Below are positions 36,408 through 44,955 of a DNA stretch of 45,010 nt, one piece after another. A program made the position numbers and the translations under genes. The first letter of the stretch is position 1; the number at the start of each line of letters is the position of its first letter. The stretch spans positions 1-45,010 of the forward strand of contig JADFDQ010000015.1 in the NCBI GenBank assembly GCA_018262705.1, read 5' to 3'. Below the pieces are notes generated by a model that saw only the letters and a program-made list of their open reading frames with translations, did no database searches and was not told the DNA's origin. This DNA is from Xanthomonas sp. (GTDB lineage Bacteria; Pseudomonadota; Gammaproteobacteria; Xanthomonadales; Xanthomonadaceae).

Positions 36408-39296
36408 GTGGATCCGCGCAGATTCCAGCAGGTGGCCGAGCTGTACCATGCGGTGCGCGAAAGTCCTGCCGAAGATCGCCTCGGACTTCTTGCAAGCGCG
36501 GAGCCCGAACTGCGCCGCGACGTGGAATCGCTGCTTGCGCAGGACACCGAAAGCACATTTCTGGAACACCCGGCGACCACGGCGGCACTGTCGCTGTTGA
36601 CGAATACCGAACCGGCCGCACTGCCCAGCGGCAGCTTGCTCGGCCCTTACCGCATCGACCGTCGCCTGGGCCATGGCGGCATGGGCGATGTGTACCGCGC
36701 GATCGACACGCGGCTTGGGCGCGCGGTCGCGATCAAATGTGTGCGCGCACGATTTTCTTCGGAATTCCTTGGCGAAGCGCGCGTGATTTCGGCGCTCAGC
36801 CACCCCAACATTCGTGCGCTGTACGACATCGGCCCGGATTACATGGTGATGGAACTGGTCGATGGCGAAACGCTTGCTGAGTGCCTCCAGCGCGGAGCAC
36901 TGCCGGTCAAGGATGCATTGGCGTATGCCCGGCAAATTCTCGCGGGACTGGCTGCTGCCCACGCCAAGGGCATCGTTCACCGCGACTTGAAACCAAGCAA
37001 CATCATGCTGTCGGCCTCCGGCGTCAAGCTGCTGGATTTTGGGTTGGCCCGATTCTTCGAGGAAGACGCCGACACCCAGACCGGCCAGGTCATGGGCACC
37101 CCGGCCTACGCCGCGCCGGAACAACGCAGCGGCCAACGCGCCGACCCACGTTCGGACATCTACTCATTCGGGCACGTCCTGCACGAAATGCTGACGGGAA
37201 CTCGCGCTGGCTCGGCGTATCCGCCCGTGCACCCGCACGCCCTTGAAAAACTCATCGCCCGCTGCCTGTGCGAATCCCCCGATCAACGCTGGCAATCGGC
37301 CACCGAATTGGCGCAGGCATTGGCGTCTATCGATGCGGCGCAGACATCAAGATGGCGTTCGCCAATGGCACGCTGGAGTATTGCGGCCTGCCTCTTCATC
37401 GCCATTGCTGCTGCCGTGGCATGGCCGTTGCTCCGGCCATCGCCGCGCGTATTGACCGACAAAGACACGGTGGTGCTGGCCGAGTTCGGCAACCGCACCG
37501 GCGATCCGGTGTTCGACGACACGCTGCGGCTGGGGCTGGCGGTGCAACTCGAACAGTCGCCGTTTCTCAGCATTGTCACCGAAGGCCGCATCCGGCAGGC
37601 GCTGACGATGATGGGACGGGCCGCAGACGCACGGCTGCCGCCGGAAGTTGCGCTGGATCTGTGCCAGCGCATCGACGCCACGACGGTGATTTCAGGCGCG
37701 ATCGCACAGGTCGGCAAGCCCTACCAACTCACGTTGCGCGCACTGGATTGCGCCACCGGAGCCACGCTTGCCAGTGCCGAAACCGAAGCTGCGGACAAAA
37801 ACCATGTACTCAAGGCATTGGGCGAGGCGTCGTCGCAGCTTCGCGGCAAACTTGGTGAGGCGTTGAGCAGCGTGCGTCGGCGCGACATTCCGCTGGAGCA
37901 GGCCACCACGCCGTCGCTCGCCGCGTTGAAGGCCTACAGCGAGGGCATGCGGCTGTTGTGGAGCGGCAATGACCCGCTCGCCGCCATTCCACGGTTCAAG
38001 CGCGCAATTGAACTGGATCCCGAGTTTGCGCTGGCATACGGCGTGCTCACCATCGAGTACTCCAACCTCGGCGAATCGCGGATCGTCGCCGATTACGCCC
38101 GCCGCGCCTACGCCCTGCGCGATCGCGTCAGCGAGCCCGAGAGCTACTTCATTCGCGCCCGTTATGGAAAATCCGGAAGCGGAAACATCGACATGGCCGT
38201 ACAGGCCAGTCAGGCCTGGATTCAAGCCTATCCGCGGATGCCCGTGCCGCACATCCTGCTGGCCGGCTCGATCTACCCCGTGATTGGTGAACACAACCGG
38301 GCCAGAGAGCATGCGCTTGCAGCCATTCGGATGACACCGGGAAATCCCATTCCCTATGCCTTGTTGATGGACAATGACATTGCGTTGAATCAGTTCGACG
38401 CTGCCCGCGCCGCACACGCGCAAGCGCGCAAATTGAACCTGCATTCGCTGATGTTCGCGATCGACCTCTATCAACTCGCTTTTCTGCAACACGATGCAAC
38501 GGGCATGTCGCAACAGCTCGCCGCCACAAAAGGACAGGCCGGTTTCGAGGATCAATTGCTGGCGGCCGCGTCCGAGGCGGCGGCGTTCCATGGGCGCATG
38601 GACGAGGCACGGCACCTGACCGAGCAGGCGATGGGTGCAGCACAGCGCGCCGGAGAACAGGAACCCGTGGCGGTGTACCTGGCCATGTCCGCCGTGCGTG
38701 AAGCACTGTACGGCAATGCAAAGGAAGCCAGACAACGCGCACAGTCAGCCATTGAGCGCTCATCGGCGCGTGACGTGCTGTATGGCGCTGCGCTTGCGCT
38801 TGCTATATCCGGTTCCGATGCCCAAGCCGAGTCGCTGGCGGCGCAACTGGCGCACCAGTTTCCGGAAGACACGCTGGTTCGATGCAGCTATTTACCCACG
38901 TTGCAAGCCAGGCTGGCACTCAACCGCGGTGCCGCAAGCGAGGCGCTGAATCTGCTTCGCCCCGCCGCACCCTATGACTTGAGCGTGACGCGATCCAGTC
39001 CCCTGGGTTGGACGGCGCTGTATCCGATCTACATGCGTGGCGAGGCTTATCTGGCTTCGAAGGACTATCCAAAAGCCGTCGTCGAGTTCAAAAAAATTCT
39101 GGACAACCCGGGGCTTGCGATGTATTTCCCGGTCGCCAGCTTGGCGCGTTTGCGGCTGGCGGAAGCCTTGTCAAACGCCAATGAACGCGCTGCAGCGTTG
39201 GCGGCCTATCGAGACGTGCTCGTCATTTGGAACGATGCCGACCGCAACTTGCCGGTACTGAAGCAGGCTTTTGCCGGGAGCGCTCGCCTGCACTGA
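36408..39296 (+). CDS. Ser/Thr protein kinase with transmembrane helix and TPR region
   Basis: A 962-residue Hanks-type kinase. After a helical N-terminal region with DPRRFQQVAELYHAV, the kinase domain (about residues 79-310) shows the Gly loop LGHGGMGDVY, Lys110 in VAIK, Glu123, HRDLKPSN (191-198), DFG (210-212) and APE in AAPEQ. All catalytic residues are present, although the stretch between Lys110 and Glu123 is short. One membrane helix lies at about 325-345. The exterior part has a region like the TolB-N-terminal fold (VVLAEFGNRTGDPVFDDTL) and then TPR-like repeats to the end. GTG start. Kinase, sigma factor and autotransporter adjacency suggests a signalling unit, but the sigma gene is damaged. 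Confidence 0.92.
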   Translation: MDPRRFQQVAELYHAVRESPAEDRLGLLASAEPELRRDVESLLAQDTESTFLEHPATTAALSLLTNTEPAALPSGSLLGPYRIDRRLGHGGMGDVYRAIDTRLGRAVAIKCVRARFSSEFLGEARVISALSHPNIRALYDIGPDYMVMELVDGETLAECLQRGALPVKDALAYARQILAGLAAAHAKGIVHRDLKPSNIMLSASGVKLLDFGLARFFEEDADTQTGQVMGTPAYAAPEQRSGQRADPRSDIYSFGHVLHEMLTGTRAGSAYPPVHPHALEKLIARCLCESPDQRWQSATELAQALASIDAAQTSRWRSPMARWSIAACLFIAIAAAVAWPLLRPSPRVLTDKDTVVLAEFGNRTGDPVFDDTLRLGLAVQLEQSPFLSIVTEGRIRQALTMMGRAADARLPPEVALDLCQRIDATTVISGAIAQVGKPYQLTLRALDCATGATLASAETEAADKNHVLKALGEASSQLRGKLGEALSSVRRRDIPLEQATTPSLAALKAYSEGMRLLWSGNDPLAAIPRFKRAIELDPEFALAYGVLTIEYSNLGESRIVADYARRAYALRDRVSEPESYFIRARYGKSGSGNIDMAVQASQAWIQAYPRMPVPHILLAGSIYPVIGEHNRAREHALAAIRMTPGNPIPYALLMDNDIALNQFDAARAAHAQARKLNLHSLMFAIDLYQLAFLQHDATGMSQQLAATKGQAGFEDQLLAAASEAAAFHGRMDEARHLTEQAMGAAQRAGEQEPVAVYLAMSAVREALYGNAKEARQRAQSAIERSSARDVLYGAALALAISGSDAQAESLAAQLAHQFPEDTLVRCSYLPTLQARLALNRGAASEALNLLRPAAPYDLSVTRSSPLGWTALYPIYMRGEAYLASKDYPKAVVEFKKILDNPGLAMYFPVASLARLRLAEALSNANERAAALAAYRDVLVIWNDADRNLPVLKQAFAGSARLH

Positions 39297-42501: not shown

Positions 42502-42882
42502 TCGAACGCTGTTCCGGGCGATATCGACCACTTCAAGAACGTCAACGACCGTTTTTGGCATCTGGTCGACGATGCCGCGCTGCGCTTCATCGTGGAGACT
42601 GTCCGCCGTCTATTACGAGACGTGGATGTCATCGGACGCTGGGGCGGCGAAGAATTTCTGGTCGTTTTGCCGGGAGCCGAGCGCGAAGCCGCTTTGGCGA
42701 CGGCACAGCGCATGCAGGCGGCGCTGTCTTCGTCGCTTTGGTCGTGGCAAGGGGAATCGGTGCCGCTACGGGCCAGTTTTGCGGTGACCGCATCGTCGGG
42801 CGCTCCGCTCGACTTGCAGGCCCTGGATCGTGCGCTGTATCGGGCCAAGGCGCGGGGCAGGAACTGCGTCGAAGTGGCGTGA
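42502..42882 (+). pseudogene. Remnant of a GGDEF (diguanylate cyclase) domain
   Basis: The frame from 42520 reads DIDHFKNVNDRFWHLVDDAA and then RLLRDVDVIGRWGGEEFLVVL, LDRALYRAKARGRNCVEVA, about the last 120 residues of a GGDEF domain. The beginning of the domain and any sensor or start codon are missing; xanB ends 4 bases earlier. Two conserved Gly positions are changed (FGH to FWH, VGD to VDD), as expected in a decaying copy, although GGEEF is kept. A GTG at 42592 could start a 96-residue product, but without the substrate-binding half it would be inactive. It is a truncated pseudogene, perhaps left by a deletion that joined xanB to it. Confidence 0.8.
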
Positions 42883-42902
42883 GCGCTTCTAAGGGGTGGT
42901 GT

Positions 42903-42933
42903 AAATGCAAATCAATATCATTGAACTGCATTT
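42903..42933. promoter_or_regulatory. 31-bp nested palindrome, candidate metalloregulator operator
   Basis: AAATGCA and TGCATTT form the outer arms and TCAAT and ATTGA the inner arms around ATC; 12 of 14 symmetric positions pair. It is strikingly AT-rich against its surroundings and lies about 75 bases before the start of the CbiX-like protein. The inner part has some likeness to Fur-type boxes. A TTGACC hexamer (42932-42937) at its edge could be a -35. Confidence 0.55.
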
Positions 42934-43008
42934 GACCGTAAACTGTGCCGATTCCTGCTGTGTTGGGCAGCGCCGAATTCAAGCACCCGTACGCGAGATG
43001 AAATCTTG

Positions 43009-44757
43009 GTGACTTCAGCACGTTTGCATTCGCTCTGCCTGTTGACCATCGGCGCAATGCTGCTTGCTTTATTACTGACCGTGCCCGCCGCCGCTGCGCC
43101 ATCGATCGGAAGTGTGCAGCCCTCGGGCGTGTTGGTCGTCACAGCGGATCGCGGCTTCCTCGGCAATGCGGAGATTCGCGACGCCTTTGACGCTTTCGCG
43201 CAGGGCCGCAATGCCGAGCTGCTGTACATCACCGACGCGCGCAGCGAAGCGGTGTTGGATGCACAACTGGCGGCGCTGCGCCAGCGCGGCGCGCGTTCAG
43301 TGACGGTGCTGCCGCTGGTGCTGTCCGAGCAGGAAGCGCGCTGGCAGCTGGCGCGCGGCTGGCTGCAGGCGCGGAAAGATGCGGGCGCGGTGCTGGAATT
43401 TGCCAAGCCCTATGGCAGTTCCTATCTGGCAGTCGAAGATCTGTCGGCGCGCTTGCGCGACGCGCAGGCGCACGGTTCGCGCCTGCTGTTGGTTGGCTAC
43501 GGCGCGGGCAATGCGGCGTCGGCCGAGGCGATGCGCAGCCAGTTGCGCCGGATGGGCGCGTTTGCCAGCACGCTGGCGCCCGAGGTGATCGATGCTGCGG
43601 TCTATCCCGAGCGCGGTGCGCAGGATGCGGACGTGCTGCGTTCGCGTTTCAGTGACGCGGTGAAAGCGGCGCAGGGCGCGGTGGTGGTTCCGGTCGGATT
43701 TGCGCCCCGCGCCGACACCATGATGGATTTCAACAGCTGGTTTGCTTCCGATCTGCCCAAGGATGCGCAATTGCTGTCAGCGCAGATCGCAAGCACGGAG
43801 TCGCTGACGCAGTGGTTGCAACGTGCGGCCGCGAAGACGCAGTTGCAACGTGCTGCGCCGGATCCCGCGCAAATCGGCGTGGTGGCATTGACCCACGGCG
43901 CCGATTGGTTCTGGAATCACGATATCGAACAGGCGCTGGCGTCGGTGGGCGCGCGCCACACGCTGGCATTCGCTTTTTCGATGGCCGATCCGCCGGTGGT
44001 CGAGCACGCGGTGCGCGAGTTGGAGCGCGACGGTGCGCAGGCGGTCGTGGTGGTGCGTGCGTTCGGGATGGCCGATTCGTTTCGCAGCGACGTCGAGCGC
44101 ATGCTTGGGCTGGATGTCGAAAATGGAAGTGCGCCACCGGCAATGTCTGGACATGCCATGGGCGGCATGGGTGGAATGGAGATGGGGCATCACGACGGCG
44201 GGGAGACCCTTGCGGCCGCACCGAGGATTCGTTCGTCACTGCCGATGGTAACGGTGGGCGGTGTCGATGATGATCCGCTGTTCGCACGTGCGTTGTTGGA
44301 AAATGCGCGTTCCGTTGCGAAGAATCCGGCGCAGGAAACCATCATCCTGATGGCGCACGGGCAGGGGGAAGATGCTGCGAATCAGCGCTGGCTGGATTTG
44401 TTGGGAAGCTTGGCCGGGCAAATGCGCGCCTTCGGCGGCGATCGTTTCCGCGCAATTCGGGTGGCCACCTGGCGCGAGGACTGGCCGGACAAGAACAAGG
44501 ACGCCGTGGCGCAGGTGCGCGCGATGGTGGCAGAGGCCAGTCGTGACGGCGGTCGCGCGCTGATCGTGCCGGCCCGGATCAACGGCCGCGGCGCAGCAGA
44601 CCGCTATCTGACCGGACTCGATTTCGGCTGGGGACAAGGCTTCGTGCAGACGCCGTACTTTGCCCAGTGGTTCGAACAGGAAATCGCCAAGGGGCGCGAG
44701 TTGCTGCAGTCGGAGCCTACACCCGCGCAGGTGACGCATCCCGCGCACGCGCATTGA
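43009..44757 (+). CDS. Exported protein with four CbiX-like chelatase modules
   Basis: A 582-residue protein with a signal peptide or anchor (LCLLTIGAMLLALLLTVPAAAA, about residues 9-30; split for length). Four modules follow the CbiX/SirB half-domain plan, starting near residues 40 (GVLVVTADRG), 158 (LLLVGYGAG), 288 (GVVALTHGAD) and 443 (TIILMAHGQGED). Each has a later strand like SVTVLPLVLS or GGRALIVPARI. The metal-site His of the HG motif is kept only in modules 3 and 4. A Met/His-rich loop, GHAMGGMGGMEMGHHDGG (about 381-398), looks metal-binding. Known CbiX/SirB proteins insert cobalt or iron into sirohydrochlorin in the cytoplasm; an exported form suggests metal or tetrapyrrole handling in the envelope. 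GTG start; TTG three bases upstream is an alternative. Function is unproven. Confidence 0.75.
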   Translation: MTSARLHSLCLLTIGAMLLALLLTVPAAAAPSIGSVQPSGVLVVTADRGFLGNAEIRDAFDAFAQGRNAELLYITDARSEAVLDAQLAALRQRGARSVTVLPLVLSEQEARWQLARGWLQARKDAGAVLEFAKPYGSSYLAVEDLSARLRDAQAHGSRLLLVGYGAGNAASAEAMRSQLRRMGAFASTLAPEVIDAAVYPERGAQDADVLRSRFSDAVKAAQGAVVVPVGFAPRADTMMDFNSWFASDLPKDAQLLSAQIASTESLTQWLQRAAAKTQLQRAAPDPAQIGVVALTHGADWFWNHDIEQALASVGARHTLAFAFSMADPPVVEHAVRELERDGAQAVVVVRAFGMADSFRSDVERMLGLDVENGSAPPAMSGHAMGGMGGMEMGHHDGGETLAAAPRIRSSLPMVTVGGVDDDPLFARALLENARSVAKNPAQETIILMAHGQGEDAANQRWLDLLGSLAGQMRAFGGDRFRAIRVATWREDWPDKNKDAVAQVRAMVAEASRDGGRALIVPARINGRGAADRYLTGLDFGWGQGFVQTPYFAQWFEQEIAKGRELLQSEPTPAQVTHPAHAH

Positions 44758-44884: not shown

Positions 44885-44933
44885 CTGACCCCTGACCCCT
44901 GACCCCTGACCCCTGACCCCTGACCCCTGACCC
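44885..44933 (+). repeat. Heptamer tandem repeat, 7 x CTGACCC
   Basis: Seven exact head-to-tail copies. On the minus strand the unit is GGGTCAG, one base different from the GGGGACA unit (as GGGGTCA) at 5161 and 26512. It lies in the 237-base gap 44758-44994, which otherwise holds no gene that I can support. Confidence 0.9.
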
Positions 44934-44955
44934 CTGAGATGGCCCGGGTTTGACG

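Follow-up and report, generated by a model that had tools for sequence, protein, structure and literature searches.

We found that a gene at 43009..44757 on the forward strand of the window (the whole 45,010-nucleotide stretch of DNA that we analysed) encodes a four-module protein of the class II chelatase fold that carries a probable export signal and arose by tandem duplication. Our preferred reading, to which we give a chance slightly short of even, is that the protein is an iron-regulated periplasmic tandem class II chelatase that frees iron from haem. Because the protein is an exported double chelatase and many of its relatives lie beside genes for haem import or iron storage, it probably helps to take iron from haem in the periplasm. 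Some role in haem or iron handling is much likelier than any one mechanism.

The gene and its probable export signal

The window is the entire contig C6 of a 2.49-Mb genome, and the gene therefore ends 253 bases from the contig end. The open reading frame (43006-44757, +) encodes 583 amino acids when counted from the TTG at 43006, and residues of the window protein are numbered here from that codon. The GTG at 43009 appeared to be the better start, with the TTG as an alternative: judged by eye from the DNA and the alignment, the orthologues have GTG at the equivalent place, and purine-rich sequence lies ahead of it. Comparison of the window gene with three orthologues (dN 0.153–0.160, dS 0.784–1.159) indicated purifying selection; the copy in genome G021 has an internal stop.

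An earlier note on this DNA, made from the letters alone, had proposed an N-terminal export signal, and a hydropathy heuristic agreed. The probable Sec signal peptide (43009..43098, +) has basic residues, then the 13-residue hydrophobic stretch LLTIGAMLLALLL (mean hydropathy 2.73, within 40 residues ahead of module 1), then AAAA. The same approach, which is a heuristic and not a predictor, found a hydrophobic stretch ahead of module 1 in 17/17 two- and four-module proteins; in the other 16 its hydropathy ranged from 1.72 to 3.47, and three had a lipobox. Five copies from genome G708 stood outside this count, as the 60 residues examined stop short of their N-termini.

The surroundings of the gene held several other features. 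A C-terminal GGDEF remnant without its N-terminal part (42592-42882, +; profile positions 66-160 of 161) lies immediately 5' of the chelatase gene, and 7.6 perfect copies of CTGACCC (44885-44937) lie directly 3' of it, near the contig end. Elsewhere in the window, a gene at 36408-39296 (+) encodes a Ser/Thr kinase (Pkinase 2.9e-44) with a long C-terminal part, and a short ORF that we named by eye as sigma-factor-like precedes it.

Four modules on a chelatase fold

The protein divides into four half-domains, whose bounds on the forward strand are approximate. Module 1 (43126..43470) and module 2 (43471..43854) are without the HG motif; the former has DRGFLGN, with an arginine at 43150-43152, and the latter GYGAG, with a tyrosine at 43498-43500. 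Modules 3 (43861..44127) and 4 (44332..44730) are CbiX/SirB half-domains with the HG histidines H297 (43894-43896) and H451 (44356-44358), respectively, and module 4 also contains the conserved motif WREDWPDK. Between modules 3 and 4 lies a Met/His/Gly-rich loop, HAMGGMGGMEMGHH (44152..44193, +; residues 383-396).

The four CbiX/SirB half-domains described in the earlier note were borne out by profile searches. Pfam CbiX matched the window protein twice, just under threshold (21.4 against a gathering score of 22 bits, E 3.1e-4), and two of the three full-length Thermomonas orthologues reached that score (25.7 and 23.5 bits; the third, 16.9). Profile comparison found the N half and the C half homologous to each other (98.5%, E 2.3e-15, 230 columns). 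Against solved structures, a C-half profile of nine sequences (A1) matched CfbA (6m25, 5.7e-6) and CbiX (3lyh, 9.6e-6), and an N-half profile of eight sequences (A4) matched SirB (6jv6, 7.7e-5, and also 2.3e-4); the N-half profile reached only E 0.27 against FetB. The profile matches of both halves are far beyond chance. We concluded from the half-to-half match and the matches to SirB, CfbA and CbiX that the window protein arose when a two-module SirB-like chelatase was duplicated in tandem.

The predicted structure of the C half had a SirB/CbiX-type chelatase fold, for which the top Foldseek match was 2xvz (E 1.9e-5). The two-lobed chelatase fold and the sequence homology together place the protein in the class II chelatase superfamily (CbiX/SirB/CbiK/HemH). 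The structure prediction that the earlier note had suggested as a check thus found a chelatase fold in the C half, and its picture of an envelope-located protein of that fold is supported by homology, the predicted fold and the putative export signals. When Pfam matches were listed up to E 10, a setting at which the HMMER filters discard most matches above 0.1, the window protein matched CbiX and Ferrochelatase only, and neither CobN nor the CbiK family appeared. It scored 16 bits against the NCBIfam model F430_CfbA, whose cut-off is 120.

We compared residues across nine aligned four-module proteins: four from Thermomonas, those of G652, G464, G554 and G474, and one from a Manganitrophus plasmid. 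Fragments from G533 and G211, the G021 copy with its internal stop and the five diverged G708 copies stayed outside the alignment. HG was confined to modules 3 and 4 in 9/9 proteins, just as had been noticed for the window protein. All nine likewise had DRG[F/Y]xGN in module 1 and [R/Q]EDW in module 4, and GYG was present in module 2 of seven. The ligand of the His75 type (CfbA) or His76 type (SirB) was absent by alignment from every module of the window protein, and catalysis is therefore not assured. A histidine sits roughly at the His75 place in module 4 of G464, and there is a nearby one in G652 (module 4) and G474 (module 3). Judging from the aligned residues, the C half, with two first-type histidines and no second-type one, resembles neither the CfbA nor the SirB pattern. 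Its two HG histidines would fit axial ligands of a metal already in a macrocycle better than the capture of free metal.

The Met/His/Gly loop of the earlier note is indeed present, but it varies in length: its kind is conserved in the Thermomonas proteins, it is represented by PGHHH in G554, and it is almost gone in G474. A His-rich stretch of CfbA falls at the same alignment point, and the loop itself was modelled with low confidence (block pLDDT 31-35). Its sequence variation suggests an accessory feature and not a signature.

Distribution and phylogeny

The family is rare and patchy. Counting the own genome, a match at E 0.001 or better was present in 10 of 99 near relatives when the full protein served as query, in 10 of 296 genomes from the family, in 10 of 369 from the class (three of them weak) and in 15 of 398 from the phylum, where all were weak except those of the own genome and G1062. 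Membership was not extended to the weak matches, which had E 3e-7 to 8e-4 and covered part of a single module; these were G387, G579 and G581 in the class and 13 of the 14 non-own genomes in the phylum. Four-module relatives were patchy in Gammaproteobacteria and also occurred on Nitrospirota plasmids. The four named contigs with relatives came from three Thermomonas MAGs, after which the genus is called here, and one 'Proteobacteria bacterium' MAG, and further relatives lay on three plasmids of Candidatus Manganitrophus (Nitrospirota), two of them matching over 98% of the query.

On the GAC4 plasmid of Manganitrophus (CP114562.1; L104 8588-9884), annotation breaks the four-module gene into several short ORFs; GAC1 and GAC2 each carry it as one long gene. 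Genome G708 has five diverged two-module relatives (L076 8529-9638 and 10241-11413; L077 9270-10283 and 10526-11641; L078 8918-9967), and in all five an N-terminal extension precedes the chelatase part.

A tree of C halves, with a root set by midpoint only, grouped seven of the eight two-module forms in one clade (100/100), with G025 apart. Eight of the nine four-module forms made up another (100/99), and G554 was not firmly placed.

Genomic neighbourhoods of relatives

The exported two-module sister form often lies downstream of a TIGR01786 haemoglobin/haem receptor with a Fur-like box. A receptor over the TIGR01786 cut-off was the next gene upstream in G055, G044 and G117; in G254 it lay ~1.1 kb upstream with an open frame between, and in G036 the gene next to the two-module gene was a frameshifted receptor. 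In G014 the gene and a piece of a receptor each sit at a contig end, though not the same one, which suggests adjacency without showing it. No TIGR01786 receptor was among the matches listed near the gene in G025, G1062 and G708; the neighbourhood view of L076 to L079 covers parts only.

Among four-module genes, that of G652 lies downstream of ExbD, an FTR1 permease joined to cytochrome c and a TIGR01786 receptor (465.7 bits), and upstream of a DUF2325 gene and ferritin; tonB and exbB, named by eye, are also in the cluster. In G554, a TonB receptor, HmuY (1.5e-15) and small ORFs precede the four-module gene; the receptor was no clearer as a haem type than as a B12 type. The G464 gene has a siderophore-like receptor (218.6 vs 223.5 bits) and PepSY-TM beside it. 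In all three Manganitrophus records the four-module gene comes first and, after at least two other genes, a TonB receptor; PepSY-TM and a ferritin-like gene come next. The nearest models of this receptor were siderophore ones, at scores far under their cut-offs. SCO1 and NnrS follow the four-module gene in G474. The earlier note had linked the protein to copper, cobalt or iron; the neighbourhoods point mainly to iron and haem, and copper is left with one weak lead, in G474.

The fusion of FTR1 with cytochrome c (L092 8160-10106, L071 13275-15203) was seen twice, in the G652 haem-receptor/chelatase cluster and, in the genome of the window, beside an M61 peptidase gene.

Thermomonas and the genome of the window

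A survey for TonB receptors, as the earlier note had advised, located them beside many relatives but not beside the window gene or its Thermomonas orthologues: no receptor adjoined any of the five Thermomonas four-module genes. In G006, G011, G017 and G021 the gene adjoins fabA/fabB-like genes (named by eye), and a TIGR01786 receptor lies elsewhere in the genome, directly ahead of a stomatin-like gene in all but G011. No chelatase match was found in these four receptor loci. In G014 the two-module gene stands immediately ahead of the same stomatin-like gene. This arrangement, together with the chelatase-free receptor loci of the carriers, suggests that in Thermomonas the four-module gene may have replaced a receptor-linked two-module one.

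Directly behind the TIGR01786 receptors of three Thermomonas genomes we observed a conserved HemS/ChuX-like ORF of ~183-199 residues that scores under the Pfam cut-off (L089 8999-9550; L106 4062-4661; L085 4184-4756). In G011, which also has the four-module gene, a HemS-like ORF lies between the TIGR01786 receptor and the stomatin-like gene.

The genome of the window had no TIGR01786 receptor over the cut-off (best 71.9 bits), and the receptor site spans 73 bp there vs 2.76 kb in G006. This genome has lost, or never had, the receptor, and for the window's strain no other observation weighs more heavily against a simple haem reading. Across the genus, among the matches listed, the receptor was present in 5/6 carriers of the gene and 8/19 other genomes, a difference that was not significant (Fisher p 0.16).

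Fur-like boxes and iron genes

We scored Fur-like sites with a presumed 19-base consensus. A candidate box at 42901..42919 (no strand assigned) matched 14/19 bases, ~90 bp before the GTG; it was the top site of its 15-kb stretch, one other, non-overlapping place in the 45-kb window also scored 14, and a similar sequence was recognised by eye ahead of all five Thermomonas four-module genes. The consensus scored 17-18 before the haem receptors of four Thermomonas carriers, which speaks for it. Within -500 to +60 of the operon start, 9/15 loci held their best Fur-like site: L015 (the window stretch), L016, L018, L020, L021, L022, L079, L080 and L081. The site of L072 tied with its locus best (13), and that of L071 (15) lay just outside the region. 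Sites in L017 and L019 scored 12, which shuffles reached in 17% and 16%, and L024 and L074 had no site in the region; none of these four had an outstanding one. The 15 loci leave out L023 and L075, whose upstream DNA is missing, and L073, L076-L078, L082 and the plasmid loci. These sites are candidates for Fur control of the family.

FeoB exceeded its cut-off in 9/17 carriers (three only with in-frame pieces summed) and FTR1 in 8/17; the 17 are the 20 carriers minus G211, G533 and G708. One or the other was present in 16/17, and G464 had neither. Since both are common, this count shows only that free iron has a way in. The window's genome has an FTR1 that likewise carries a cytochrome c domain and shares 43% identity with the one in the G652 cluster; near it, no Fur-like site scored above 12. 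Haem oxygenase PF01126 was over its cut-off in one of 25 genomes (G025, a carrier), as was PF05171 in one (G464, also a carrier). Neither was over the cut-off in any of the eight receptor-bearing non-carriers, so the absence fits the idea of haem-iron release by other means and does not single out carriers.

Comparison with known systems

The closest precedent on the same fold is FetB/IhtB, two names for what we take to be one protein. Like the window protein it is an exported class II chelatase fold (structure 9b86), and it belongs to a TonB iron/haem system. It is CbiK-like with one chelatase per protein, whereas the window protein is CbiX-like, with two fused and a Fur-like box. IhtB of Porphyromonas gingivalis is described as thought to strip iron from haem and as not PgFur-regulated (PMC10913741), and a review has FetB inserting manganese into protoporphyrin (PMC13402209).

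In function, the closest known protein appears to be HmuS of Bacteroides thetaiotaomicron and Porphyromonas. Both it and the window protein are chelatase-type, and HmuS sits in a TonB haem-receptor system. In contrast to the class II SirB/CbiX fold of the window protein, which has no Pfam CobN match, HmuS is membrane-bound and class I CobN-like. HmuS is reported to remove iron from haem to leave protoporphyrin IX, to lose this activity without His538, and to have a Met-rich insertion of 22 residues or more and two histidines in its proposed active site (PMC12583661); it is thought to act in the periplasm (PMC13227078). The Thermomonas proteins have a short Met/His/Gly loop, variable elsewhere in the family.

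CbiK-P of Desulfovibrio vulgaris, whose structure 2xvz was the closest Foldseek match, is likewise an exported class II chelatase; it is described as a periplasmic cobaltochelatase with a metal-binding His207 (PMC4063343). Unlike the window protein, it is a single chelatase with no fused second one. SirB, CbiX and CfbA share the fold with the C half and have detectable homology to both halves. They are described as biosynthetic, with His9/His75-type ligands, whereas the window protein carries a putative export signal and is without the His75-type ligand; its first-type histidine is kept in both C-half modules and in neither N-half module. CfbA holds its substrate between two His9/His75 pairs, one per subunit, and SirB has the metal pair His10/His76 with Arg134 at the second His9 place (PMC11301274).

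Discussion

We suggest that the protein is best labelled a class II haem de-chelatase of the periplasm or, more loosely, a handler of haem iron there. In the C half, each module supplies one HG histidine; the pair would lie opposite each other across the tetrapyrrole cleft and grip the haem iron from either side, and the conserved acidic EDW motif could act with them to protonate the porphyrin and release the iron. The N half keeps the fold family with arginine and tyrosine in place of the histidines, which makes it a probable site for docking or holding the tetrapyrrole. The Met/His loop could catch the freed metal, and iron would then pass the inner membrane via FTR1 or FeoB. Several observations tell against this reading: no Thermomonas four-module gene adjoins a receptor, gene and receptor show no significant association in the genus, the window protein has no His75-type ligand, G011 has a HemS-like ORF at its receptor in addition to the four-module gene, the receptors of G464 and Manganitrophus are siderophore-like, G474 has SCO1 and NnrS, and four loci are without an outstanding Fur-like site.

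The main alternative is a non-catalytic periplasmic carrier, whose chelatase cleft would bind haem or another tetrapyrrole and which would pass it on, with the iron still in place, to apocytochromes or an inner-membrane transporter. We consider this unlikely, though it deserves real weight: haem receptors and HmuY adjoin relatives, the His75-type metal ligand is lost from the window protein and both histidines from the N half, and FetB, labelled "heme-binding" in the PDB, shares the fold. Against it, all nine aligned four-module proteins, across two phyla, keep the two HG histidines and EDW, and the FTR1, ferritin and PepSY-TM neighbours point to free iron. The same ferritin neighbours and the Fur-like boxes would also suit a periplasmic protein that chaperones iron or releases it from siderophores without ever meeting a tetrapyrrole, as would the siderophore-like receptors and PepSY-TM proteins by the gene in G464 and Manganitrophus and the want of a haem receptor in the window's own genome. 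Such a protein is distinctly unlikely: in the two-module sister clade most members are linked to TIGR01786 receptors, and a receptor of this type and HmuY occur in the neighbourhoods of G652 and G554.

A role in inserting or exchanging metal on porphyrin that has been scavenged, along the lines proposed for manganese and FetB in Porphyromonas, strikes us as quite improbable. The fold is shared with FetB and CbiK, FetB is said in a review to insert manganese into protoporphyrin (PMC13402209), and G464 has its histidine at about the His75 place in module 4; yet that metal-binding residue is missing in the window protein, and the neighbours import or store iron. A copper (or cobalt) metallochaperone, suggested by the Met/His loop, is highly improbable. 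The Thermomonas loop is rich in Met and His, and SCO1 and NnrS follow the gene in G474, but the loop varies and has all but disappeared in G474 itself, an SCO1-like gene near the G652 four-module gene (named by eye) is on the other strand and outside the cluster, and Fur-like boxes and iron neighbours are seen elsewhere.

Class II chelatases that are exported have been described before, and so has the de-chelation of haem beyond the cytoplasm. The earlier note's remark that export plus four modules was unfamiliar therefore stood for the four-module architecture and not for export, given CbiK and FetB/IhtB. In the open-licence papers that our searches listed we did not find a four-module fusion with a degenerate first half, a two-histidine C half, or a tie to a haem receptor and Fur-like box in Proteobacteria. 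We tentatively put forward a bolder version of the de-chelatase reading, which we think somewhat likelier to be wrong than right. It holds that oxygenase-free release of haem iron evolved a second time, independently, through a class II de-chelatase that is soluble, works in the periplasm and belongs to Proteobacteria and Nitrospirota. Its catalytic half, SirB-like and with two histidines opposite each other, would be fused to a haem-docking pseudo-chelatase half (arginine and tyrosine for histidines), a design that would parallel HmuS, an unrelated class I enzyme, with its two haem sites and its Met-rich insertion. Iron would go to FTR1 or FeoB, and PepSY-TM or the FTR1 cytochrome c would be a possible electron partner.

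The finding bears on how Gram-negative bacteria without the usual haem oxygenase free iron from imported haem. If the protein does strip iron in the periplasm, de-chelation would not be a speciality of the Bacteroidota: two unrelated chelatase folds would have given rise to it, and a soluble protein would offer a direct test of the ferrochelatase fold running in reverse. The pseudo-chelatase half fused to it would also illustrate well how an enzyme fold can be reused to dock a substrate.
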